Shown here: piece after piece, positions 51,655-63,151 of the stretch
Layout of the letters: each line of letters starts with the position of its first letter
How positions within the stretch are numbered: position 1 is the stretch's first letter
NCBI RefSeq assembly: GCF_011516765.1
Contig: NZ_JAAABN010000004.1
Span: forward strand, 1-64,000
Direction: 5' to 3'
Length of the DNA: 64,000 nt
Origin: Acetobacter sicerae
GTDB taxonomy: Bacteria > Pseudomonadota > Alphaproteobacteria > Acetobacterales > Acetobacteraceae
Notes under the pieces: generated by a model
Database searches by the model: none
The model's input: only the letters and a program-made list of their open reading frames with translations
Told to the model about the DNA's origin: nothing
Translations under genes and position numbers: made by a program

Positions 51655-52116
51655 TTAGGCGGAGAGAGCGGCCTTGACGAGACCATTTGCACGGCCGAGG
51701 TCGAGGGATGCGCCGAATTTGGATTTCAGGGCGCCCATGACCTTGCCCATGTCCTTCATGGTTGTTGCGCCAGCCTCAGCGATGGCGGCTTCGACAGCGG
51801 CCTTCAGCGCGGCTTCGTCCATTTCCGGCGGCAGGAATTCGCGAATGACTTCGATTTCGTGCTGTTCCTTTTCGGCAAGGTCTTCCCGACCACCTTCAAG
51901 GTACATTTTCACTGATTCCTGCCGCGACTTGACCATGCTGCGGAGCGTAGAGGTGATGTCGTCATCCGAGAGCGCCTCCTTGCCCTGCCCGCGCGCAGCG
52001 ATGTCGGCATCCTTGATTTTCGCGCCAATCATGCGGAGCGTGGTGACGCGCTCTTTCTGACCGGCCTTCATGGCAGTCTTCGTTTCGTCAGCGATGCGGG
52101 CACGGATATCGGTCAT
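51655..52116 (-). CDS. GatB/YqeY-domain protein
   Basis: The 153-residue product matches the YqeY family: an N-terminal helical part (K-T-A-M-K-A-G-Q-K-E-R-V-T-T-L-R-M), a middle segment R-E-F-L-P-P-E-M-D-E, and the C-terminal M-K-D-M-G-K-V-M-G-A-L-K. The domain is shared with the tail of GatB and may bind tRNA. Function is not established. The start is the ATG at 52116 with GGAGG eight bases upstream, 15 bases inside the open frame. It is probably the first gene of the dnaG-rpoD transcript. Confidence 0.9.
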   Translation of the reverse strand: MTDIRARIADETKTAMKAGQKERVTTLRMIGAKIKDADIAARGQGKEALSDDDITSTLRSMVKSRQESVKMYLEGGREDLAEKEQHEIEVIREFLPPEMDEAALKAAVEAAIAEAGATTMKDMGKVMGALKSKFGASLDLGRANGLVKAALSA

Positions 52117-52362
52117 GGCACGAGCCTCCAATAGAGTGGATCAGATGCAGGGGGTGTCTCCCTTATTCGCAGGCTGGTCAAGCCAAACTGGTTCAAGGCA
52201 GCCTGCCTTCCGGACGCGCTTTCCAAGGTAGAGGCCTATGCCTCACACTCACCTGACAGCAAGCGCATCTGAAACAGGGATTTGAATAGCACCCAAATTA
52301 TCAGGCTATAGAAGGATAAATTTACAAAAACAGATCATTTAACCAATTACAAATTCAGATAT

Positions 52363-53346
52363 TCACTTACCAATACGGCTTCCTTTTATGATCTCGTCGA
52401 CGAACATATTTATTATTCTGTTTTTCTCATCTATCGTTCTAAACGCCACATAATGCTTTGATGAAAATTTATATATATCACGCTTGATGGCCCGCATCTG
52501 CTTACTTCTGACATAAGGAAGCGCTGCCTGCTCAGGCAGAAATCCGATGAAACTTCCTGACAGAATCATCATCAGTTGCGCCTCCATATGCACAATGCTG
52601 CCACTGGCGCGTGGATGCCGGATACGCTGAAGATCCTCAAGCTTGCGATAGGCCCTTACGGAAAACCGGGCCTGATCAATCATGTCTTTCGAAATATCAG
52701 CATCTTTTGTGCCAAAGAACGGATGCTGGTTGCCGCAATATAAAGCGTGCGGCTCCTCACAAAGCTCCACATACTGCACGCCGGGAGCGTGACGGGCGAA
52801 AGGCCCCACCACGACATCGCGCGTTCCGTCCGCCACCTGAAGCTCAAGATCCTGCGGCACCCCCAATCGCAGATCAATATGGATATTGGGGATTTGAGCC
52901 ACCACGCGCGCCAATACATGCTGAAGCGCCATCTCAGGACTATTTATGATTCCTCCGATTGTGCCAATCCGCAGTCTCCCCCCCAATTCAGTTGGAGCCT
53001 GACTGATCCGGGATTGGAAAGTGTCGATACTTTCAAAAAGATCCTGAATTGCCTCGACTGTCTCCTCCCCCAGAGGCGTCAGTCGAAAGCCCTTGCGCCC
53101 CCGAAGACACAGCGCGCCGCCCAGTCGCTGCTCCAGCGCGGCCAGATGGGTGCTCAATGTGGACTGGCTGAGATTGAGGGTTATCTGGGCAGCCGAAAAG
53201 CTGCCCGTTTCTGCGAGTGTCGCAAAAACCCGCAAGAGGCGCAGATCAATATTGTCGAACCGCCGCATCCTCGTAGCGCCAGGAGCAGCCTGCTTTTTTG
53301 GGGCAGGCGGGAGGGAATGCGCCGATGGAGGGCGTTTAGGACTCAT
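52363..53346 (-). CDS. LysR-family regulator of the guanidino-type operon
   Basis: The 327-residue protein has an N-terminal winged helix-turn-helix (L-R-V-F-A-T-L-A-E-T-G-S-F-S-A-A-Q near residue 37-53, then Q-S-T-L-S-T-H-L-A-A-L-E) and a LysR-type ligand-binding domain. It is the last gene of the minus-strand cluster; its ATG lies inside the end of the ureohydrolase gene (10-base overlap), so it is translated with the operon it probably controls. The first 26 residues precede the conserved start, and M-R-R-F-D at 53268 is another possible start. LysR genes are more often divergent from their targets; co-transcription at the end points to autoregulation. Confidence 0.85.
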   Translation of the reverse strand: MSPKRPPSAHSLPPAPKKQAAPGATRMRRFDNIDLRLLRVFATLAETGSFSAAQITLNLSQSTLSTHLAALEQRLGGALCLRGRKGFRLTPLGEETVEAIQDLFESIDTFQSRISQAPTELGGRLRIGTIGGIINSPEMALQHVLARVVAQIPNIHIDLRLGVPQDLELQVADGTRDVVVGPFARHAPGVQYVELCEEPHALYCGNQHPFFGTKDADISKDMIDQARFSVRAYRKLEDLQRIRHPRASGSIVHMEAQLMMILSGSFIGFLPEQAALPYVRSKQMRAIKRDIYKFSSKHYVAFRTIDEKNRIINMFVDEIIKGSRIGK

Positions 53347-54298
53347 GCTTCCTGAAATACAGGATGCGTCCGATAAAATTAAGCAGCAATTGCGCCGCCA
53401 GTATGGGCGTTATTTTGGCAGGATCGTAATCGGGCGCGACCTCCACCAGATCAATCCCGGCGACATGGCCTCTTTCCGCCAGAGCCGCAAGCAGTTCCAG
53501 TATTTCATAATACAGGAAGCCACCATGACTTGGCGTGCCTGTTCCGGGAGCAATGGATGGGTCGAAAGCATCAATGTCGATGGAAAGATAATAGTTCACA
53601 CCAGCAGGAATACGTTCAAGCAGGGCTTCCAGCCCCATCTTGCGCACCTGTCGCACGCTGAGAATATCCGAGCCGAACTCCCGCGCATCTTCATATCCTT
53701 CGCGCGCTGTGGAAGACACGTTACGGATACCGATCTGCGTCATGCCGGTGATGTAAGACTGTTCTGCGGCACGACGCATCGGATTACCGTGACCATGACG
53801 AACCCCCTGCCGCTCATCCACGAAGTCGAGATGTGCATCGATCTGGATAAGATGCATCGGGGGTTGATCATCGAACGCCCGGATGCAGGGGATGTTGATG
53901 GAATGATCGCCACCCAGCACGATCGGTAGCGCCCCCGCGGCCAGGATGGCGCGAACACCTGCTTCAATGTTCGCGTGGCTCCGCTCCGTATCCGTATGCA
54001 CGATATCGGCATCGCCTATATCGACAATGCGCCCTCCGGTTCCATCAAGATAAACCCGGTCATCTTCATGATCGTAGGCACCGGCATGGCCGAAGGCGAA
54101 GAGGGTCGAAGCCTCCCGAATGCTGCGGGGACCAAAGCGGGTTCCACTGCGCCACTGGGTGCCGCAGTCGAAAGGCGCGCCCATGATGGCGACGTCCGCA
54201 TCGATGGCGGACCAGTCCGTCTGTATCGGATATTTTCCGAAGCTGCATATGCCGACAAAAGGCAGATCAAGGCGGCCGCTGTCGTAGCCGTTTTTCAT
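53336..54298 (-). CDS. ureohydrolase (agmatinase-like), copy B
   Basis: The 320-residue product belongs to the arginase/agmatinase superfamily, which hydrolyses guanidino groups to urea and an amine with a two-metal centre. The ligand motifs are complete: G-G-D-H (H132), D-A-H-L-D (D154, H156, D158) and S-I-D-I-D (D241, D243). It differs from copy A in its long N-terminus and in the G-H-G-N-P-M-R-R segment, which replaces H-G-T-P-F-R-R in the substrate region. It starts with an ATGA overlap to copy A's stop. The substrate may be agmatine, a guanidino acid or guanidine; sequence alone does not say. Confidence 0.85.
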   Translation of the reverse strand: MKNGYDSGRLDLPFVGICSFGKYPIQTDWSAIDADVAIMGAPFDCGTQWRSGTRFGPRSIREASTLFAFGHAGAYDHEDDRVYLDGTGGRIVDIGDADIVHTDTERSHANIEAGVRAILAAGALPIVLGGDHSINIPCIRAFDDQPPMHLIQIDAHLDFVDERQGVRHGHGNPMRRAAEQSYITGMTQIGIRNVSSTAREGYEDAREFGSDILSVRQVRKMGLEALLERIPAGVNYYLSIDIDAFDPSIAPGTGTPSHGGFLYYEILELLAALAERGHVAGIDLVEVAPDYDPAKITPILAAQLLLNFIGRILYFRKHES

Positions 54299-55245
54299 GC
54301 CTTCTCTCCTGCCGCGACAGCACAAAGCAGCTCAAACATCATGGTCGCACCGGCAAGAGATGTAATGCCTCCTACATCGAATGGGGGAGACACCTCCACG
54401 ACATCGGCGCCAATGATATCGAGACCATTGAGACCGCGGACCATCTTCTGTGCTTCACGCATCAGAAAACCTCCAGCTTCCGGCGTGCCTGTGCCTGGAG
54501 CAACCGAAGGATCAAGACAGTCAATATCGAACGACACATAAACGGGGCCGTCACCTACGCGCTCACGAATGGCGCGGATGATGCCGTCCGGCCCAAGGTC
54601 CACCGCCTCATCCATGAGGATCAGGCGGAACCCGGCTTCACGAGCGAAATCGTAATCCGTTGGAGAATACAGCGAGCCGCGCAGACCGATCTGAAGCGTC
54701 CGGCTGCTGTCGATCAGCCCCTCCTCCACCGCACGCCGGAAAGGAGTGCCGTGAGTATAACGGTTTTTCCCGAAATAGGCGTCACCGGTGTCGGTATGAC
54801 TGTCGAAGTGGATCAGCCCGACAGGACGCTCAGCCGCAAGGCCACGCAGGATAGGCAAACTGACAAGATGGTCGCCACCCGCCGTGATGGGCACCGCACC
54901 TGCGGCCGCAATGGCAGCGTAATGCGCGGTGATCATGTCCAGACACTCCGTCACATTGAACGGATTGACCGGGCAATCTCCGATATCAGCCACATTAAGC
55001 GACTGATATGGAGCGATCCCGTTGGCATTGACCTGCCGCATCATGGACGAGGCGTTCCGCATTTCACGCGGACCATGGCGCGCACCGGAACGGTTGGTTG
55101 TGCCGCCGTCATAGGGAATACCAGTAAAAACGACGTCATACCCATCAGCGCTGCTGGCCAGCGGGAGACGCATGAAGGTCGGCACCCCTGCAAAACGGGG
55201 CACCTGACTGGCGTCGATCACATGGGTTTCACCGTGATGCGTCAT
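54295..55245 (-). CDS. ureohydrolase (guanidinobutyrase/agmatinase-like), copy A
   Basis: The 316-residue product is of the arginase/agmatinase superfamily and resembles guanidinobutyrase and guanidinopropionase of Pseudomonas in overall pattern, as I recall those sequences (V-P-R-F-A-G-x-x-T-F-M-R-L-P near the start, L-N-V-A-D-I-G-D, then H-G-T-P-F-R-R-A-V-E-E-G-L). Metal ligands are G-G-D-H (H126), D-S-H-T-D (D148, H150, D152) and S-F-D-I-D (D240, D242). It would cut a guanidino compound to urea and an amine. Its start overlaps the creatininase stop by four bases. Confidence 0.86.
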   Translation of the reverse strand: MTHHGETHVIDASQVPRFAGVPTFMRLPLASSADGYDVVFTGIPYDGGTTNRSGARHGPREMRNASSMMRQVNANGIAPYQSLNVADIGDCPVNPFNVTECLDMITAHYAAIAAAGAVPITAGGDHLVSLPILRGLAAERPVGLIHFDSHTDTGDAYFGKNRYTHGTPFRRAVEEGLIDSSRTLQIGLRGSLYSPTDYDFAREAGFRLILMDEAVDLGPDGIIRAIRERVGDGPVYVSFDIDCLDPSVAPGTGTPEAGGFLMREAQKMVRGLNGLDIIGADVVEVSPPFDVGGITSLAGATMMFELLCAVAAGEKA

Positions 55246-56015
55246 AGTCCGAACTCCTTGCTGATGGCTTCCGCCAACAGACGTGTGTGATCATCCATCA
55301 GCCACTGCCCTTTTTCGGCCGTGGAACCCTGCGCTCTGGCCAGCACGCCGGAGGGAGGAACAAAATCCGCTCGCAGCGGCCAGCGGTCATAGGGTGGGAA
55401 TGTAGCGGGTCCGTCATTGGGGACCTTGTTCATATCAACCAGATCGTCGCGCACGAGCAGCATCAGCGAAGTTTCGAGCAGGCTTGCATGCTCAAGTTCC
55501 GTGCCGGGAAATCCTTCCGGAAACAGACGATCAAGCGTCGCGCGTTCGACGAAATCCCAGTATTCCAGACGCATGGCGGTGAGACCTTCGATCCCGTCGC
55601 GTCGGACATCACGCATGGCGAGATCGAGACCTTCCACGGCAGGCCATGCATTTTCGAAATGACCGTTCACGAGAACGATCCGTTTGACACCATGATGCGC
55701 CAGCCGACACACGATATCGCGGATGACGAGGGTGAGCGTATTGGCATCCAGCCCGATTGTGCCGGGAAAATGCTCGCCACCGCCTGAACGGGGCTGCGAT
55801 TTGTAGCCGTAAGGCAGCGTCGGGGCGACCAGCCCGCCCACCTTTTCCGCCACACGTTCGGCGACGGCCGTGGGAAGGACCTGATCAACATTCAGCGGCA
55901 GATGCGGGCCGTGCTGTTCCGTGGCGCCGATCGGCAGGAACACCACGGGATTCTCCGCCACACGGGCAGCGAAATCTGGCCATGTGAGTTCAGCAAGTTT
56001 GACAGTTCTGGACAT
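55242..56015 (-). CDS. creatininase-family amidohydrolase
   Basis: The 257-residue metal hydrolase aligns closely with Pseudomonas putida creatininase as I recall its sequence. Shared features include the metal ligands E33, H35, D44, H119 and E121, the G-G-G-E-H-F-P-G-T loop, the E-Y-W-D-F-V segment and a conserved C-terminal half. Creatininase opens the cyclic amide of creatinine. Two active-site aromatic positions differ: Y121 is F120, and the lid residue W174 is T172. The substrate may therefore be another cyclic guanidino or related amide. The ATG at 56015 has GGAGG eleven bases upstream; the frame is open to 56201. It lies between the dehydrogenases and ureohydrolases. Confidence 0.85.
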   Translation of the reverse strand: MSRTVKLAELTWPDFAARVAENPVVFLPIGATEQHGPHLPLNVDQVLPTAVAERVAEKVGGLVAPTLPYGYKSQPRSGGGEHFPGTIGLDANTLTLVIRDIVCRLAHHGVKRIVLVNGHFENAWPAVEGLDLAMRDVRRDGIEGLTAMRLEYWDFVERATLDRLFPEGFPGTELEHASLLETSLMLLVRDDLVDMNKVPNDGPATFPPYDRWPLRADFVPPSGVLARAQGSTAEKGQWLMDDHTRLLAEAISKEFGL

Positions 56016-56046
56016 GATGGACTGAAGCCTCCTAACGGAAAGCAGG

Positions 56047-56757
56047 TCAGTGCATGGCGGCGCCGCCATCCACGTTAAGGCACTGGCCGGTGATGAAGGA
56101 TGCGTCCTCAGACGCGAGAAAGAGAGCAACCCGGGCAATTTCCTCAGGTCGTCCGATGCGCCCCAGCGGATTGGAAAGATCCTGAGCCTGTGTGGCGGCA
56201 TCCTGCTGGGCGAAATTCAGCAGTGGTGTATCGACTGGTCCGGGCGCGATGGCGTTCACCCGGATGCGGGGCGCAAGTTCACGCGCCCATGAACGCGTCA
56301 TCGACAGGGTCGCTCCCTTGGTTGCGCAGTACGCCGAAGCCCCGGCACGTCCGAGATAGGCCAATTCGGACGCGATATTGAGAATACAGCTACCTTCACC
56401 CATGAACGGCAGAGCGCACTGTGTGACCAGAAAGGGCGCGCGCAGATTGACTGCCAGCGTAAGATCGAGTGCTTCACTGGTTAAATCCTGAAGCGTTTCT
56501 TCGATCATGATACCAGCGCAGTTGACCAGAACGTCGATCCGGTTTTCCAGATGCGCCGCGGCGTTCCTGACGCCTTTTTGCAGAGCTGCGACATCTGTCA
56601 GATCGACTTCCAGACCATCAAGCCCCTCAACAGGTGCTTTACGATCCAGGCCGATCACATTGGCCCCAGCCACTGACCACGCCTGCGCAATGGCAAGCCC
56701 GATCCCTGACGAAGCTCCTGTCACAAGAACATGCTGATGTGAGGACTGTATTTTCAT
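56047..56757 (-). CDS. short-chain dehydrogenase/reductase
   Basis: The 236-residue classical SDR has T-G-A-S-S-G-I-G for the coenzyme, an Asp after the second strand (L-D-R-K) that favours NAD, N-C-A-G, and the catalytic Ser and Y-C-A-T-K. It is six bases downstream of another SDR gene and 31 bases upstream of the creatininase gene. It would oxidise or reduce an alcohol or carbonyl intermediate in the cluster's pathway. Which intermediate is unknown. The ribosome binding site is plain but not strong. Confidence 0.85.
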   Translation of the reverse strand: MKIQSSHQHVLVTGASSGIGLAIAQAWSVAGANVIGLDRKAPVEGLDGLEVDLTDVAALQKGVRNAAAHLENRIDVLVNCAGIMIEETLQDLTSEALDLTLAVNLRAPFLVTQCALPFMGEGSCILNIASELAYLGRAGASAYCATKGATLSMTRSWARELAPRIRVNAIAPGPVDTPLLNFAQQDAATQAQDLSNPLGRIGRPEEIARVALFLASEDASFITGQCLNVDGGAAMH

Positions 56758-56763
56758 TGGAAC

Positions 56764-57519
56764 CTACAGGGGATATTCGCCGCGATCGATCTGGATCGTC
56801 TGGCCGGTGATGCTTGCTGCGAGGGGAGACGCAAGAAACAGATAGGTATCCGCCACATCCGACGCCGTCATGAGGCCCGGAAGAGCCTGAGCTGCGATAA
56901 TGTCGTTCAGACAGCCATCTTCGCTTTTCCCGCTCCGTTCCGACATCGTCGCCAGAGAGCGCATGGCGGCCTCCGTGCGCACCCAGCCCGGCGCTACGGC
57001 ATTGACGCGAATACCCTGCGCCCCAAGCTCAAGCGCCCAGGTTTTTGTCAGACCGATGATGGCGTGTTTGGAAGCGACATAGGCGCCAAAAAGCGGCTCC
57101 GCTACACGGCCCCAGATCGACGCCGTGTTGATGACAGCCCCCCCAGCCCGCATGAGAGGACGCACCAGACGCGTGACATGATAGGTGCCGACGACATTGG
57201 TGTGGATGACCCGCTCAAACATCGCGACGGTTTCGGCGTCCTGACTCTCCAGCGGGGTCAGCCGTTCAAGCCCGGCATTATTGATCAGCACGTCGATCGG
57301 TCCGTGATCGCGCAACCCTTCAGCTATGGCAGACGCGTTTCCGATATCTGCTTTTACAGCCTTCCCACTGAGAGAGGCGGCCACATCGAAAATCGCATCG
57401 TCGTTAGCGAGAAGTGTCAGGGATGCCCCTGCGCGCGCGAAAGCCTGCGCCACGCCGAGGCCGATCCCCCGGCTTGCTCCCGTGATGAAAACGGACTTTT
57501 TCGAAAAATCCATCATCAT
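56764..57519 (-). CDS. short-chain dehydrogenase/reductase
   Basis: The 251-residue classical SDR has T-G-A-S-R-G-I-G, N-N-A-G, the catalytic S-I-W-G with Y-V-A-S-K and a late A-P-G-W-V-R-T-E segment. It is clearly different from the SDR that follows, so the pair would act on different intermediates. The Asn-Asp after the second strand suggests NAD use. The start overlaps the transporter ATPase stop (ATG at 57519, or the third ATG at 57513), so it belongs to the operon. Confidence 0.85.
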   Translation of the reverse strand: MMMDFSKKSVFITGASRGIGLGVAQAFARAGASLTLLANDDAIFDVAASLSGKAVKADIGNASAIAEGLRDHGPIDVLINNAGLERLTPLESQDAETVAMFERVIHTNVVGTYHVTRLVRPLMRAGGAVINTASIWGRVAEPLFGAYVASKHAIIGLTKTWALELGAQGIRVNAVAPGWVRTEAAMRSLATMSERSGKSEDGCLNDIIAAQALPGLMTASDVADTYLFLASPLAASITGQTIQIDRGEYPL

Positions 57520-58304
57520 GCAGCAACCGCCTTCACCTGGCGTCCTCGCAGACGATGCAGGATCTCCGTACGCAGGTGGAAAAACCGCTCACTGTCTCGC
57601 ACGGTTTCGTTTCTCTCCGCACCTATCAGGGAAGTCACATCGATATCCGCGATAACATGAGCCGGACGAGATCCGAATACGATGATCCGATCAGCAAGGA
57701 AAACGGCTTCCTCAACATCATGCGTAACGAAGATCGTGGTCTTTCCAGAATTTTTCTGAATTTTCCGGAGTTCGAACTGAAGATCCTCGCGCAGATTGGC
57801 GTCCAGTGCACCGAAAGGTTCATCCATCAGCAGCACATCCGGATCGGCGGCAAGGGTTCGGGCGATGGCGACACGTTGACGCATCCCGCCAGAAATGCGC
57901 GAAGGATAACTTGTGGCGAAGTCGCCAAGCCCGACCAGTTTCAGGAAATGTTCCGCACGGTCCTTTTTCTGGCCGAATGAAAGGTCTTTGCGGAAACGCA
58001 TGCCGAATTCAATATTCTTGCGGACAGTCAGCCATGGAAAAGAAGAATAGGACTGAAACACCATGCCACGCCGGATATCCGGCTCACCTACAGGCCTTCC
58101 CTGAAGCAGAATCTCCCCGGAAGTCGGCGTATCAAGACCACCGATCATCCGCATGAGCGTGGTCTTTCCGCATCCGGAGGGACCGAGAAAGACCGTGAAC
58201 TGACCTGCAGGAATGGAAAGATTGAATGGTTCCTGCACAACCGGAACGTCTCCGAAGAATTTCGTGACATTTCGGAACTGGAGATAGGGAGAAATCTGTT
58301 CCAT
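57516..58304 (-). CDS. ABC importer ATPase (nitrate/sulfonate/taurine type)
   Basis: The 262-residue ATPase has Walker A G-P-S-G-C-G-K-T, the signature S-G-G-M-R-Q-R and Walker B L-L-M-D-E-P-F-G-A-L-D. The last is the pattern of the NitT/TauT/SsuB importer family. The start at 58304 follows the permease stop by two bases; the frame is open to 58349, which would overlap the permease. It provides energy for the importer that begins the cluster. Confidence 0.9.
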   Translation of the reverse strand: MEQISPYLQFRNVTKFFGDVPVVQEPFNLSIPAGQFTVFLGPSGCGKTTLMRMIGGLDTPTSGEILLQGRPVGEPDIRRGMVFQSYSSFPWLTVRKNIEFGMRFRKDLSFGQKKDRAEHFLKLVGLGDFATSYPSRISGGMRQRVAIARTLAADPDVLLMDEPFGALDANLREDLQFELRKIQKNSGKTTIFVTHDVEEAVFLADRIIVFGSRPAHVIADIDVTSLIGAERNETVRDSERFFHLRTEILHRLRGRQVKAVAA

Positions 58305-58306
58305 GT

Positions 58307-59119
58307 TCACTGATACCTGAAGAGCTTGCGGTGCAGCAGGCGCAGACATTGGTCGGTCACAAGACCGATCAGGCCGATCATGATGACACCAGCCATGACC
58401 TGATCGGTCTTCATGAAGCGTCGCGCCGTCCAGATGACGAAGCCAAGACCACTATCGGAAGCAACGATTTCCGCGATGATGACATAGGTCCAGCACCAGC
58501 CAAGACTTATACGCATGCTGTCCATGAGCTGGGGCAGCATGGCCGGAAGCGCCACAGGTAGAAGCGTCTCCCTTGGCCGGGCGCCCAGTGTGTAAGCCGT
58601 TTCGAAATATTCGTTGGGAATACGCTTCATGTCAGCAGCGATCATGAGAACGAGCTGGAAGAATGTGCCAAGCCACAGCAAAAAGATCTTGGTTGACTCC
58701 CCTACCCCGAACCAGATGATCGCGAGCGGCACAAGCGCCGGCACCGGAAGATAACGGATAAAGTCGATCATTGGCTCCAATGTCGCGCCGATGATGCGAT
58801 ATCCGCTCATCAGGATACCCAGCGGCACGGCCAGCAAAGCCGAAAGAAGAAAGGCCAGCCACACACGTCTGACGGACACCACCGTATTGGGCAGCATCGA
58901 GCCATCCGTGCACATCCGGATGAAAGTCTGCGCGACCTTGAGCGGCGTAGGCAGGAAGACGGGCGCCACCACATGCAGCGACACCAGTAACTGCCAGCCT
59001 CCGAGAAAAGCCGCTGCCCCAGTCACTGCAGCCAACAGTGTGGCGCTCTGTGGAATTGATGCCCGAAAACGAAACAGGCCGCCGGAGCCCTTCCGGGAAG
59101 AAGAAGCCACTGCCGTCAT
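58307..59119 (-). CDS. ABC importer permease (nitrate/sulfonate/taurine type)
   Basis: The 270-residue inner-membrane protein has about six hydrophobic helices and the coupling-loop pattern E-x-x-x-x-x-x-x-x-x-G near the C-terminal half (E-T-A-Y-T-L-G-A-R-P and A-L-P-A-M-L-P). This is the SsuC/TauC-like permease family. It would form the channel as a homodimer. Its start overlaps the stop of the substrate-binding protein gene by four bases. Confidence 0.9.
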   Translation of the reverse strand: MTAVASSSRKGSGGLFRFRASIPQSATLLAAVTGAAAFLGGWQLLVSLHVVAPVFLPTPLKVAQTFIRMCTDGSMLPNTVVSVRRVWLAFLLSALLAVPLGILMSGYRIIGATLEPMIDFIRYLPVPALVPLAIIWFGVGESTKIFLLWLGTFFQLVLMIAADMKRIPNEYFETAYTLGARPRETLLPVALPAMLPQLMDSMRISLGWCWTYVIIAEIVASDSGLGFVIWTARRFMKTDQVMAGVIMIGLIGLVTDQCLRLLHRKLFRYQ

Positions 59120-60102
59120 GGAGAAGAAATCTCGGCAATCAGGCTGCTATCGATAGAATGCGCTGGATCGAGACGAACAGAGGCAGCTCCATTTTCGATG
59201 TTCAGCCCCATGAGAGTGACGAAAATCTCGTTAATCTTTCCCGGCTTTTCAGGCGTGCCCATATAAGCCTTTGACTGAGCCAGATCTGTATATTCAAGGC
59301 TTCCCACGACGCTTTTCTTGAAGTCATCAGGTGAAAGATCAAAGTGAGGCGCTGCGATCTTCGCAAAATCTTCCGGATTGGATTTGTAATAGGCCACAGC
59401 CTTGTACAAAGCCGTCAGGAAACGCTTGTATTTGTCGGGATTGGCCTTCAGATCGTCATTGCGGGCCACAAGAACATCCACGATGTAATCAGGATAATCA
59501 GCCGACGACACCAGTTCCTTTGGATGACGGTCTGCTGAAATGCCCAGTATCTGCTGCAGGAAAGGCTGATAGGTCACGACCGCCGCAATGCTCGGGTCCG
59601 CAAATACCGCCACACTGTCGGAAGTCAGGATTTCCTTCATCTTGAGATCGGCCAGAGTCATGCCGTGCTTGTGCAGTTCCATCTGCAGGAGAAGACGACC
59701 CGGAATATTGCTTTCCGAGGCAACAGTCTTGCCCTTGAGGTCACTGACGTTATGGATGGAGCCGTCAACAATCACCCCATCCCCACCAAGACTGCGGTCA
59801 ATTGAACCGATGACGATACCCGGCGTGTTCTCGTCACGCGGCCGCCCCTGATATTCATTGAGGGCGCGCATCTCCATCTCGATGGAGCCATGCGCCATGG
59901 CGGCCATGACATCGGAGCGTTCGTCGGAGAATTTCAGATCGACGGAAAGATGGGCATCCTTGAAATATCCCAGATCCTGAGCGACCAGAACCGGAGCAAA
60001 ACCTGTCCAGACAGGCGCCATGATTCGAATTGTATCGTCAGCATGCGCTGCTGTCGCACAGCCAAGACCGAGAACAACCGCAAGCACTTTGAGTGACTTC
60101 AT
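59116..60102 (-). CDS. ABC importer substrate-binding protein (NMT1/SsuA-like)
   Basis: The 328-residue periplasmic protein has a signal peptide (V-L-A-V-V-L-G-L-G-C-A-T-A-A-H-A) and the NMT1/SsuA-like two-lobe fold, with V-A-S-E-S-N-I-P-G and a typical hinge. Family members bind taurine, sulfonates, nitrate, pyrimidine precursors and other nitrogen compounds. Here the downstream ureohydrolases suggest a guanidino ligand, which is inference. The ATG at 60102 has GGGG six bases upstream; the frame is open to 60117. It is the first gene of the operon and lies downstream of a candidate promoter. Confidence 0.88.
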   Translation of the reverse strand: MKSLKVLAVVLGLGCATAAHADDTIRIMAPVWTGFAPVLVAQDLGYFKDAHLSVDLKFSDERSDVMAAMAHGSIEMEMRALNEYQGRPRDENTPGIVIGSIDRSLGGDGVIVDGSIHNVSDLKGKTVASESNIPGRLLLQMELHKHGMTLADLKMKEILTSDSVAVFADPSIAAVVTYQPFLQQILGISADRHPKELVSSADYPDYIVDVLVARNDDLKANPDKYKRFLTALYKAVAYYKSNPEDFAKIAAPHFDLSPDDFKKSVVGSLEYTDLAQSKAYMGTPEKPGKINEIFVTLMGLNIENGAASVRLDPAHSIDSSLIAEISSP

Positions 60103-60164
60103 CACGCACCCCATCATATCGTTACCGAAACAGGTTAGAGGCGTGATGTCTTTATGGGTATCAA

Positions 60165-60182
60165 AATGTTCAGAACATTATA
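60165..60182 (-). promoter_or_regulatory. -10 box overlapping a perfect palindrome
   Basis: On the minus strand TATAAT (60182 to 60177) is followed directly by the palindrome AATGTTC-A-GAACATT (60165-60179), sharing three bases. A protein bound here would cover the -10 and start region, so I infer an operator for repression. The -35 is weak (about GTGAAT). The leader would be about 70 bases. The regulator may be the LysR protein of the operon or another factor. Confidence 0.55.
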
Positions 60183-60427
60183 TCGATAAATCTGGATGTA
60201 TTCACATCGACATGGCGAAGCGTTCCGGTTGGATGGCCGTCTCTCCTCAACTGATACACTTGATTGATTCTCACACGCCTTTGGACCAACGCCCATAGCG
60301 CAATCGCCTCCCTATCCAATCAACAGGAAAGCAGGCTTCAGTATCTGCTATTTAACTTGGGAAAGCTTTGCGGCAGGCATCGACTGCGCGGCACGATGAA
60401 CTGCTCTCTCATGGATTTTGCCAGAGA

Positions 60428-60470
60428 GAAGAAAATTCCCACCATAATTTCCGGGCTGGGAATTTTCTTC
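60428..60470. repeat. perfect 14-bp inverted repeat upstream of carA
   Basis: GAAGAAAATTCCCA pairs perfectly with its complement around a 15-base loop. It ends 52 bases before the carA start. It has no T-run after it. It could be an mRNA structure in the carA leader, an attenuator, or a bidirectional terminator. Confidence 0.7.
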
Positions 60471-60522
60471 CCACCGCCGTTTCAGACTGCTAGAAGACCT
60501 CTCGGTAGGGAGTAAGCAAGCC

Positions 60523-61935
60523 ATGTCTCTGTCTGTCGAAGCCATCATTGAACGGATCGGCGGTCCTGAAAAGATCGCGGCGCTGACCGGCGTCGGCACT
60601 GAAGCCGTACGCAAGTGGCGTCAGGCGCGGGCGATTCCCCCGAAGCACTGGCCTGTTGTGGCCCGGGCTGCCGGCATTTCGCTTGATGAGCTTCAGCCAG
60701 AATCCACTCCCTCTTTTCCCGAGTCCCCTAACCGGAAACCGACCATGTCTGAACAGCGTGCAAGCTCCGCCACTGATGTTCCGGAGGGAGCGACAGCCGC
60801 CCTCGTCCTCGCCGATGGCACGGTGTTCTGGGGAATCGGCTTTGGCGCTGCGCCAACCGACGAGGCGATCGGTGAAATCTGCTTCTCCACCGGCATGACC
60901 GGCTATCAGGAAACGCTGACCGATCCTTCCTTTGCCGGACAGATCATCACCTTCACCTTCCCGCACATCGGCAATGTCGGCACCAATGCCGAAGATGACG
61001 AAGCCCTGCGCGTTGCCGCACGTGGCCTTGTCGTGAAGCAGGACCTGACGGAGCCGGCCAACTGGCGCTCGACGGAAAGCCTCGACGCCTGGCTGAAAGA
61101 ACGGAACGTGCCGGGCATCTGCGGCGTGGATACGCGCGCCCTGACCCTTCGCATCCGTGACGGCGGTCCCCAGACTGCCGTTCTCGTGGCTGTCAGCAAT
61201 GGCCAGATCGACCTTGACGCCGCCAGGGCGAAAGCCGTCGCATGGCCGGGTCTGGAAGGCATGGACCTCGCCAAGACCGTGACATGCGAGAAGCCCTACA
61301 CATGGTCGGAAGGCGTGTGGAACTGGCCGTCCGGCACCACACCGCTGCCCACCAAGCGTCGCAAGGTTGTCGCGGTCGATTACGGTGCGAAGCGGAACAT
61401 TCTCCGCTGCCTGACCACCGCGGGCTGTGATGTCACGGTCGTTCCGGCAACGACGTCCGCCGAGGAAATTCTGGCGCTCAAGCCGGAAGGCGTCTTCCTC
61501 TCCAATGGCCCCGGCGATCCGGCAGCCACGGCTCCCTACGCCGTCCCCGCCATTCGCGGCGTTCTGGATGCGGGCATTCCCGTGTTCGGCATCTGCCTCG
61601 GCCACCAGCTTCTCGCACAGGCGCTGGGAGCCAAGACCTACAAGCTGGCGCAGGGTCATCGCGGCGCGAACCAGCCCGTGAAGGATATCGAGACCGGAAA
61701 GGTCGAGATCACCAGCCAGAACCATGGTTTCGCCGTCGATGAGAAGTCGCTGCCGAACGATGTGAAGGTCACGCACATCAGCCTGTTCGACAAGTCGAAC
61801 GAAGGCATCGCCTCGACCACGCTTCCGGCCTTTTCCGTGCAGTATCATCCGGAAGCCAGCCCCGGTCCGTCCGACAGCTTCTATCTGTTCGAACGGTTTG
61901 TGGCGCTGATCGACTCACACGGAAAGGCCGCCTGA
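60523..61935 (+). CDS. carA: carbamoyl-phosphate synthase small subunit with N-terminal helix-turn-helix
   Basis: The 470-residue glutaminase subunit supplies ammonia for carbamoyl phosphate, used for arginine and pyrimidines. Residues 1-57 form a Cro/YdaS-like helix-turn-helix (I-G-G-P-E-K-I-A-A-L-T-G-V and V-R-K-W-R-Q-A-R), followed by a linker and then the CarA body from about residue 75. The class I amidotransferase Cys358 is in G-I-C-L-G-H-Q, with the H and E of Y-H-P-E-A-S late on. A ribosome binding site (TAGGGAG) precedes the first ATG; the inner ATG at 60745 has none, so the fused form seems real. I recall a small domain of this kind in other alphaproteobacterial CarA proteins. Confidence 0.93.
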   Translation: MSLSVEAIIERIGGPEKIAALTGVGTEAVRKWRQARAIPPKHWPVVARAAGISLDELQPESTPSFPESPNRKPTMSEQRASSATDVPEGATAALVLADGTVFWGIGFGAAPTDEAIGEICFSTGMTGYQETLTDPSFAGQIITFTFPHIGNVGTNAEDDEALRVAARGLVVKQDLTEPANWRSTESLDAWLKERNVPGICGVDTRALTLRIRDGGPQTAVLVAVSNGQIDLDAARAKAVAWPGLEGMDLAKTVTCEKPYTWSEGVWNWPSGTTPLPTKRRKVVAVDYGAKRNILRCLTTAGCDVTVVPATTSAEEILALKPEGVFLSNGPGDPAATAPYAVPAIRGVLDAGIPVFGICLGHQLLAQALGAKTYKLAQGHRGANQPVKDIETGKVEITSQNHGFAVDEKSLPNDVKVTHISLFDKSNEGIASTTLPAFSVQYHPEASPGPSDSFYLFERFVALIDSHGKAA

Positions 61936-61945
61936 GCCTTCCCGC

Positions 61946-63151
61946 ATGGATCCTGTCCGTAACCCTTACGTCCCCGGAGCGGGCGCGTCTCCTCCCGAAC
62001 TTGCCGGGCGGGAAGACCTGTTCACACAGGCCGGAATCGTGTTGCAGCGTGCGCTTGGTGGAAAAAGCGCACGTAGCTTCATCGCCACCGGTCTGCGGGG
62101 CGTGGGCAAGACCGTCGTTCTGGCGCGTGTCGAACAGCTCGCGAAAAGTGCTGGCTATCTGACCTGCTTTGTCGAAGCAGAGGAAGAAAAACCGCTTGGC
62201 GCGACACTGGCTCCTCACCTGCGCCGGATGATGCTGGAACTGGATCGTCTCGGAGCAGTAACGGAACAGGTCAAACGCGGCCTGCGCGTTCTGAAAAGTT
62301 TCGCCAGCGGCCTGCGTATCCAGTCAGTGCTTGGTTTCAGCATCGAACTGGATGTGGAGCCTGAACACGGGACAGCAGACACGGGCGATCTGACGACCGA
62401 TCTGCCAGACATGATCTCGGCTCTCGGTCATGCCGCGCAGTCCCGTCATACCGGCGTGGCGCTGTTCATCGACGAGATCCAGAACCTGTCCGAGTCCGAT
62501 CTTTCGGCTCTCATCATGGCGATGCACCGTGTCATGCGCGAAGGCCTGCCGATCGTGCTGGTTGGCGCGGGACTGCCGCATCTGGTGTCACTGATCGGTC
62601 AGGCCAAATCCTATGCCGAGCGCCTGTTCGAATTTCCCGTTCTCGGCCCGCTTTCTCCTGCCGAATGTGAAGACGCCCTTCGCACTCCCGCAGAACGGGA
62701 AAGCGTGGACTTCACGCCGGAAGCCGTCGCGGAAGTCGTGCGCATCACGCGTGGCTATCCCTATTTCCTTCAGGAATGGGCCTACCACGCGTGGAACGTG
62801 GCGCATGGCGACCGTATTCTCAAAGGCGATATCCAGGTGGCGACGGAAGTGTCCCTGACGTCGCTGGACGGGGGCTTCTTCCGGATGCGCTACGCCCGTC
62901 TGACCCCCCGCGAACGGGAATACTGTCAGGCCATGGCGGAGCTGGGTGACGGCTCACATCGTTCCGGCGAAATCGCCGAACGCATGGGCTCGCGCACGCA
63001 GGCCGTGGCTCCTGTGCGGGCGACGCTGATCCGCAAGGGCATGGTCTACAGCCCGGCTCATGGCGAAACGGCGTTCACCGTGCCGCTTTTTGAAAACTAT
63101 CTTCACCGTATTCGGACCATGGGCACCGACCCAACCGACTCAGACGACTGA
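61946..63151 (+). CDS. AAA+ ATPase between carA and carB
   Basis: The 401-residue protein has Walker A G-L-R-G-V-G-K-T (residues 49-56), Walker B L-F-I-D-E-I-Q (173-179) and the sensor-like L-V-G-A-G-L-P. The layout is that of Orc1/Cdc6-like or AAA_16-type ATPases. A winged-helix-like C-terminal region follows (L-T-P-R-E-R-E-Y-C, then G-E-I-A-E-R-M-G and L-I-R-K-G-M-V-Y). I recognise no characterised member. It lies 10 bases after carA and 15 before carB on the same strand, so it is probably co-transcribed with them. No signal peptide. Possible roles are regulation of the operon or an unrelated DNA-associated function. The ribosome binding site is weak. Confidence 0.82.
   Translation: MDPVRNPYVPGAGASPPELAGREDLFTQAGIVLQRALGGKSARSFIATGLRGVGKTVVLARVEQLAKSAGYLTCFVEAEEEKPLGATLAPHLRRMMLELDRLGAVTEQVKRGLRVLKSFASGLRIQSVLGFSIELDVEPEHGTADTGDLTTDLPDMISALGHAAQSRHTGVALFIDEIQNLSESDLSALIMAMHRVMREGLPIVLVGAGLPHLVSLIGQAKSYAERLFEFPVLGPLSPAECEDALRTPAERESVDFTPEAVAEVVRITRGYPYFLQEWAYHAWNVAHGDRILKGDIQVATEVSLTSLDGGFFRMRYARLTPREREYCQAMAELGDGSHRSGEIAERMGSRTQAVAPVRATLIRKGMVYSPAHGETAFTVPLFENYLHRIRTMGTDPTDSDD

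Follow-up and report, generated by a model that had tools for sequence, protein, structure and literature searches.

A creatininase-family hydrolase without the lid tryptophan in a putative guanidino-compound operon of Acetobacter sicerae

The stretch analyzed here comprises the first 64,000 nucleotides of contig NZ_JAAABN010000004.1 of Acetobacter sicerae (assembly GCF_011516765.1), hereafter called the window, and includes a gene for a 257-residue protein of the creatininase family. This gene belongs to an operon whose members, all on the minus strand, encode in the order of transcription an ATP-binding cassette (ABC) importer (binding protein, permease, and ATPase), two short-chain dehydrogenases (SDR1 and SDR2), the creatininase relative, two arginase-family ureohydrolases (UreA and UreB), and a LysR-family regulator (Table 1). 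With moderate confidence, we favor the view that the 257-residue protein is a binuclear-metal cyclic amidohydrolase of the creatininase family which is no longer specialized for creatinine and which provides the hydrolytic step of an operon for the catabolism of a guanidino compound.

Table 1. Genes of the operon around the creatininase relative (positions in the window).
Feature	Position	Strand	Characteristics	Basis
ABC importer substrate-binding protein	59116..60117	minus	NMT1/SsuA type	profiles
ABC importer permease	58307..59119	minus		profiles
ABC importer ATPase	57516..58349	minus	nitrate/sulfonate/taurine type	profiles
SDR1, short-chain dehydrogenase	56764..57519	minus	nearest solved structures 3-hydroxybutyrate dehydrogenases; Ser-Tyr-Lys intact	
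SDR2, short-chain dehydrogenase	56047..56757	minus	Ser-Tyr-Lys intact; Asp38 at the end of β2; most constant neighbor	
Creatininase-family hydrolase, SDR-linked clade	55242..56015	minus	257 residues; ATG start	profile, alignment, and model
UreA, arginase-family ureohydrolase	54295..55245	minus	motifs GGDH, DSHTD, and DIDCLDP	
UreB, second arginase-family ureohydrolase	53336..54298	minus	metal motifs intact	
LysR-family regulator	52363..53346	minus		profiles

The 257-residue protein scores 356.2 bits with the NCBIfam equivalog model TIGR04448 (creatininase), thereby passing its cut-off of 235, and 206.9 bits with Pfam PF02633; phmmer aligns residues 1-255 with the creatininase of Pseudomonas putida (PDB 1j2t) at 275.7 bits (E 3.8e-81). 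An AlphaFold2 model, with a mean predicted local distance difference test score of 89.9 (70 in the lid-bearing block 171-180), superimposes on the ten creatininase structures listed, wild-type and mutant alike, with Z scores of 33.5-34.3 and root mean square deviations of 1.6-1.7 over 254-256 residues. The next structures are 3no4 (Z 26.1) and 3lub (Z 23.8). Superposition on the P. putida enzyme, which the original prediction had proposed as a check, yields a near-full-length fold match with Z about 34.

That prediction had also named the residues at the active site, and all of its assignments prove exact in the alignment with the P. putida enzyme. The metal ligands E33, H35, D44, H119, and E121 correspond to E34, H36, D45, H120, and E122 of P. 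putida, W153 corresponds to W154, and the two substitutions are F120 at the Y121 site and T172 at the W174 site. The register of T172 and W174 is not in doubt, because this column lies in an ungapped stretch between the anchors PEGF..G[W/T]..EH....ET. W174 of the P. putida enzyme is reported to help close over creatinine, and PDB entries of its W174F mutant (3a6e and 3a6f) bear on this role by their titles. The protein also carries R149, E151, and A177-S178, which are residues of its clade.

Relatives were found by scanning genome contigs with patterns from the window protein alone, and the best 80 of 177 were retained as loci (L numbers below). Because many are near-copies (17 of the 80 are titled Ancylobacter), the locus counts are not independent. 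Genes were called with a custom codon-model script, and context was read within a 6-kb radius at chosen identity cut-offs, for the SDRs at least 38% in the lid comparison and at least 35% in the neighbor counts of the 80 loci. The creatinase-linked set contains proteins that are annotated as creatininase or match TIGR04448 and whose genes lie close to one of the creatinase-type M24 family, from three genome loci (L130, L131, and L133) and eight plasmid loci, the latter selected from 15 listed matches more than 60% identical to P. putida creatininase. Together, the lid comparison has 11 creatinase-linked rows, 81 SDR-linked rows, and 17 rows with neither context, 106 of the 109 rows being different.

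W174 is kept in all 11 creatinase-linked rows and in none of the 81 SDR-linked rows, where Thr, Ile, Val, Phe, or Tyr is found at this site. The Tyr121 site is Phe in 5 of the 11 creatinase-linked rows; because Phe is so common in these enzymes, Y121F is neutral and was rejected as a marker. Hence, of the altered aromatic residues to which the original prediction drew attention, the change at W174 is informative but the one at Y121 is not. W124 was considered as a substitute lid Trp, since it is present in 78 of 83 clade rows, yet it also occurs in 9 of 12 creatinase-type sequences and, judged by sequence, is not supported in this role. No clade-specific Trp able to replace W174 was seen in the sequence alignment.

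In a tree built without the lid column, a single change separates the creatinase-linked from the SDR-linked rows. Among the 17 rows with neither context, nine keep the Trp (P. putida itself included) and eight do not; five of these eight (L075, L087, L088, L096, and L106) fall among the SDR-linked rows on the tree and lie below the SDR cut-off or on cut or rearranged stretches. Two long-branch rows with Trp, L117 and L129, are placed beside SDR-linked rows on a quick tree. The association of lid and context is strong and phylogenetically close to a single event. Further residues separating the groups are Arg at V150, Glu at S152, and Ala-Ser or Ala at G179-G180. Most rows with neither context likewise have Arg or Lys at position 150 and Ala at position 179, so that the marks of the clade are the loss of W174 and, less cleanly, Glu152.

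Other arrangements were seen outside this pattern. Three creatininase-annotated or TIGR04448 proteins (L113, L117, and L135) lie beside cytosine-deaminase-type genes, a third context, and keep the lid Trp. The creatininase-like genes of L139 and L140 form a branch of their own; behind each lies an isochorismatase-like gene, and the W154 site is Pro and the W174 site Leu. In Salipiger sp. CCB-MM3 (L114:9965-10759), a creatininase relative with Asn for His120 lies behind an FMN-monooxygenase gene.

Within 6 kb, an SDR2-type gene is found in 77 of the 80 loci and the pair of SDRs in 58; UreA is present in 45 and UreB in 33, and no creatinase (M24) gene lies within this distance of the creatininase-like gene in any of the 80. 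The five metal ligands are kept in the window protein and in all 80 loci, whose record titles include Acetobacter, Acidocella, Methylopila, Ancylobacter, Skermanella, Azospirillum, Aurantimonas, Hyphomicrobium, Hydrogenophaga, Polaromonas, and three cyanobacteria. Six named loci, all from Acetobacter, are 81-96% identical to the 257-residue protein. No match to SDR1 or SDR2 was found in the 11 creatinase-linked loci, 7 of these stretches being shorter than 11 kb. Among the eight genomes of the genus that carry the gene, five, the source genome included, had no match to a creatinase-type query, and the other three had partial matches of at most 41.3 bits. In a less biased sample, 11 of 385 genomes of the class have a protein above the TIGR04448 cut-off; in the ten other than the source genome it lies beside creatinase (three), beside SDRs (three), or beside neither (four); in one of the last (L134), a creatinase-type gene is weakly matched (36%) at a distance of about 6.5 kb.

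UreA, whose gene overlaps the creatininase-like gene by 4 bases, shares 60.5% identity with 3-guanidinopropionase (PDB 3nip) over 304 residues, and the nearest solved structure to UreB is agmatinase 1wog (190.6 bits). Both were also considered as the guanidinase GdmH and rejected on the Trp site: where guanidinase 9fek has Trp, UreA and UreB have Thr, as do 46 of the 48 UreA matches (two were unread) and all 34 UreB matches in the loci. This Trp, whose role is taken from the accessible part of PMC11410670, is numbered there Trp305 in Synechocystis and Trp313 in N. inopinata, and on our own reading of the alignment it probably corresponds to the PGTG-W-P site.

The substrate-binding protein of the importer matches the putative urea-transporter model TIGR03427 weakly (59.9 bits, cut-off 333.9). 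The catalytic Ser-Tyr-Lys is intact in all 63 SDR1 rows and all 77 SDR2 rows, and a pair of an active and an inactive SDR is not supported, as both keep these residues. By the usual rule for SDRs, an Asp at the end of β2 goes with NAD. It is present in 68 of the 77 SDR2 rows, which suggests that SDR2 uses NAD and hence points to oxidation. The mechanical open reading frame of UreB begins at a TTG at 54325, an ATG at 54298 being the likelier start; the start of the LysR gene is uncertain, as an internal Met coincides with the start of its relatives, and in many other loci this gene stands divergently at the operon head. Elsewhere in the window, an AAA-ATPase-like open reading frame of 401 residues (61946-63151) lies between genes that by eye are carA-like and carB-like, and the carA-like frame has about 74 extra N-terminal residues (60523-60744) which, again by eye, resemble a small helix-turn-helix domain.

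The enzymes around this core vary among the loci. A Rieske oxygenase is present in 13 of the 80, the L044 copy, the one searched against solved structures, being nearest to carnitine monooxygenase; a membrane desaturase-like protein is present in 14, and an FMN monooxygenase lies within 6 kb in one. The ureohydrolases are replaced by an ADI/DDAH-superfamily protein and a DUF1989 gene in four loci (L086, L090, L091, and L092, two of them titled Hyphomicrobium), where the proteins scanned were those of L086. In this locus (L086:10786-12251) the DUF1989 gene is followed by the ADI/DDAH-superfamily gene where ureohydrolases would otherwise stand, possibly a deiminase variant of the pathway. Ten of the 80 loci, mostly betaproteobacterial, have an isochorismatase-like hydrolase of the biuret-hydrolase type; the one scanned, from L087, resembles biuret hydrolase at 221 bits (cut-off 370). 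Guanylurea hydrolases belong to the same isochorismatase-like family, as stated in the accessible part of PMC9800807. A 275-residue protein adjoining the operon in L093 (12194-13018), where it has no Pfam or NCBIfam match, has grouped genes in 13 other loci.

Rfam models were run on 26 of the 80 loci, on one L106 stretch again, and on L114, L115, L139, and L141. A guanidine-I riboswitch (Gd-I) above threshold immediately precedes the first operon gene in L093, L098, L102, L104, L105, L107, L108, and L110, and L106 has a sub-threshold one upstream (53.4 bits, gathering threshold 63). These nine operons are beta- or gammaproteobacterial and of the SDR-SDR-hydrolase type. On the tree, all nine fall within a single subclade of 11 loci; of the other two members, the stretch of L109 begins too late to tell and the operon of L087 is rearranged. 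With a model built from 11 of the riboswitches (R1), a search of the window together with the 80 loci (1.6 Mb in all) gave 12 matches, 11 of them by construction, so that the informative results are the match in L106 and the absence of others. Besides the nine operons, the matches lie in L098, L107, and L048, where they precede genes for guanidine transport or of the carboxylase type. No match of R1 was found in 26 further loci, which include the 11 creatinase-linked ones.

Polaromonas sp. CG_9.7 (L098:81-15217) has an unbroken row of such genes. Here, Gd-I is followed by an importer protein, a desaturase-like protein, SDR1, SDR2, a 292-residue gene product, the creatininase-like protein, an isochorismatase-like protein, and two more genes, and the row continues directly with a second Gd-I, a permease, an ATPase, two DUF1989 genes, a Gd-II element, and a carboxylase-type gene of 1207 codons, whose product clusters with that of the urea-carboxylase-type gene of L048. 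DUF1989 is the family of CgdA/B, according to the accessible part of PMC11410670, and the Gd-I switch of Vreelandella bound guanidine but not methylguanidine in the range tested, according to that of PMC12508155.

The source genome itself has, on another contig (C12, L141:2694-13002), a row of genes for an ABC importer, two DUF1989-like proteins of the CgdA/B type, a urea/guanidine carboxylase, and an AtzF-like amidase, the names other than that of the carboxylase coming from a reading of the translations. This set is likely a guanidine carboxylase operon; no riboswitch was detected there. Urease is above cut-off in all eight same-genus genomes with the gene, the source genome included. Because the source genome has both urease and this operon, urea and guanidine could both be usable.

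Creatininase hydrolyzes the amide bond of a cyclic acylguanidine. Given that oxidative enzymes are encoded directly before the creatininase relative and guanidino-removing enzymes directly after it, we propose a pathway in which an acylguanidine would be made and then opened, with release of urea. The ABC importer would take up a small guanidinium-type compound, and both SDRs would oxidize a hydroxyl or cyclic-hemiaminal carbon to the acyl level, giving a cyclic or open acylguanidine, which is a creatinine-like group; in some lineages, oxygenases may supply the hydroxyl. The creatininase-like enzyme would then hydrolyze the C-N bond of the acylguanidine by the creatininase mechanism, yielding a guanidino acid from which the 3-guanidinopropionase-like UreA, and perhaps UreB, would split off urea. 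The step order, the direction of the SDR reactions, and the acylguanidine intermediate are those we infer from the gene set. Without the lid Trp, a larger ring or one of another shape may fit; one candidate, given the similarity of UreA to 3-guanidinopropionase, has one carbon more than the creatinine ring, and a Trp-free lid would accommodate it.

The window protein probably acts on a substrate other than creatinine. The original prediction had considered a changed substrate plausible, and this suggestion is strengthened by the W174 contrast, the SDR/ureohydrolase operon, and the nine riboswitch operons, Y121F carrying no weight. More broadly, and tentatively, the SDR-SDR-creatininase core may represent an undescribed route of guanidino breakdown, in which dehydrogenases build an acylguanidine and a creatininase relative without the creatinine lid opens it, after which a ureohydrolase, guanidine-modifying deiminase, or biuret-hydrolase-like enzyme would complete the route, depending on the lineage, in some under a guanidine riboswitch; many proteins labeled creatininase would be included.

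Several observations weigh against these proposals. The creatininase equivalog cut-off is exceeded by a wide margin, and the gene is patchy in its own genus, with a copy of at least 81% identity in 8 of 37 genomes, the source genome included. The window has no guanidine-I riboswitch, either with RF00442 at the gathering threshold or with R1, and a search of positions 52000-60600 at E up to 5 gave no guanidine riboswitch and one unrelated match (E 0.97); presumably, the operon relies on its LysR regulator instead. No riboswitch precedes any alphaproteobacterial operon version searched, the sole alphaproteobacterial match, in L048, lying before DUF1989/carboxylase genes. The lid change and the SDR context arose on one branch and therefore count as one event, not many independent ones, and once the 17 rows with neither context are included, eight changes on the tree are required for the SDR label and three for the presence or absence of the Trp. 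The Salipiger protein, an SDR-linked row, has lost the metal ligand His120. In 21 of the 80 loci, UreA, UreB, the ADI/DDAH-superfamily protein, and the isochorismatase-like hydrolase were all not found within 6 kb; a Rieske gene is present in 9 of these 21. Finally, the SDRs would need a substrate that carries a hydroxyl or a hemiaminal.

It is fairly unlikely, in our estimation, that the protein is an ordinary creatininase whose lid has drifted, converting creatinine into creatine, which UreA and UreB instead of creatinase would split into urea and sarcosine while the SDRs play a side role. The TIGR04448 score, the near-full-length fold match, the ureohydrolase genes directly downstream, and urease in all eight gene-bearing genomes of the genus are consistent with it. 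This explanation, however, does not account for the SDR2-type gene that accompanies 77 of the 80 relatives and is opposed by the distribution of W174, absent in all SDR-linked rows and present in all creatinase-linked ones, and by the closeness of UreA to 3-guanidinopropionase.

Oxygenases near the core in some loci raise an alternative that we consider unlikely, namely a module for oxidative dealkylation which frees guanidine from an N-alkylguanidine: an oxygenase would carry out a hydroxylation, an SDR would oxidize the hemiaminal to an N-acylguanidine, and the creatininase-like enzyme would release guanidine. Three unrelated oxygenase types occur in subsets of the loci (Rieske, desaturase-like, and FMN monooxygenase, the last also in Salipiger), guanidine riboswitches precede nine operons, and N-(hydroxymethyl)guanidine is described as an unexpectedly stable hemiaminal in the accessible part of PMC12508155. 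The operon in the window, however, has no oxygenase gene, and its UreA resembles an enzyme for a guanidino acid, not for free guanidine, and is without the guanidinase Trp.

Quite improbable is a pathway without an acylguanidine, for instance the opening of a ring or lactone of a guanidino-bearing polyol or cyclitol, as IolN opens diketo-inositol. The SDRs give sub-threshold matches to sugar/polyol-type models, and the protein weakly matches the IolN model; but in sequence it is much nearer to creatininase, guanidine is what the riboswitches indicate, and identity with the IolN 3-dehydro-scyllo-inosose hydrolase (NF041098) was rejected on its score of 66.3 bits, the cut-off being 245. A mycofactocin-type peptidase MftE acting with mycofactocin-coupled SDRs is hardly credible and was rejected: MftE is in the same family and SDR1 scores 146.6 bits with the mycofactocin-coupled SDR model, but the cut-off of this model is 300, the score with TIGR03964 is 104.2 bits against a cut-off of 172, and the radical-SAM MftC model TIGR03962 is above cut-off in none of the eight genomes, its sub-threshold matches in all eight (best 89-103 bits) being found also in 12 of 14 controls (E 1e-10).

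Returning to the view of a creatininase relative in guanidino-compound catabolism, the protein probably retains creatininase chemistry, and its lid residue and gene context suggest that it should not be filed as a creatinine amidohydrolase. It shares with creatininase (EC 3.5.2.10; P. putida, PDB 1j2t, 1q3k, and 3a6d) the near-full-length fold, 48-51% identity, all metal ligands, W154, and the equivalent of His178, but differs from the P. putida enzyme by Thr at W174, Glu at S152, Arg at V150, and Ala-Ser at G179-G180. Unlike the loci of creatinine-degrading creatininases, SDRs and ureohydrolases adjoin, and there is no creatinase. The NCBI creatininase equivalog model TIGR04448 thus spans at least two different groups, which one residue, W174, together with gene context is offered to separate.

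IolN is also a member of the creatininase family and serves a pathway with dehydrogenases, but the window protein scores far below the cut-off of its model, as given above. UreA has the same metal motifs as GpuA (3nip), yet, unlike GpuA, it is accompanied by a creatininase relative and two SDRs. No description of the operon was found in the open literature, a scope that leaves outside most subscription papers and all bioRxiv preprints, and the nearest remark, in the accessible passages of PMC12625717, concerns a creatininase-like gene near biuH in a metagenome-assembled genome of an archaeal ammonia oxidizer. This locus resembles the ten of our 80 loci in which a biuret-hydrolase-type gene lies near the creatininase-like gene, but SDRs, ureohydrolases, and a guanidine riboswitch are not mentioned for it in those passages.

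Free guanidine has been recognized as a bacterial metabolite only recently, according to the accessible part of PMC12186494. The operon brings a creatininase relative and two dehydrogenases together with guanidine-sensing RNAs and guanidino ureohydrolases, providing a small, testable set of enzymes. It differs from known guanidine-riboswitch operons in its SDR-SDR-creatininase core, and in the window by having no riboswitch, and MgdH of Vreelandella, a 2-oxoglutarate dioxygenase in the accessible part of PMC12508155, is not among the neighbors identified here. Nine versions of the operon are preceded by Gd-I, and the known guanidine-riboswitch operons include those of guanidine carboxylase, CgdAB, and AtzF and, according to the same part of PMC12508155, of MgdH-MgdL of Vreelandella.

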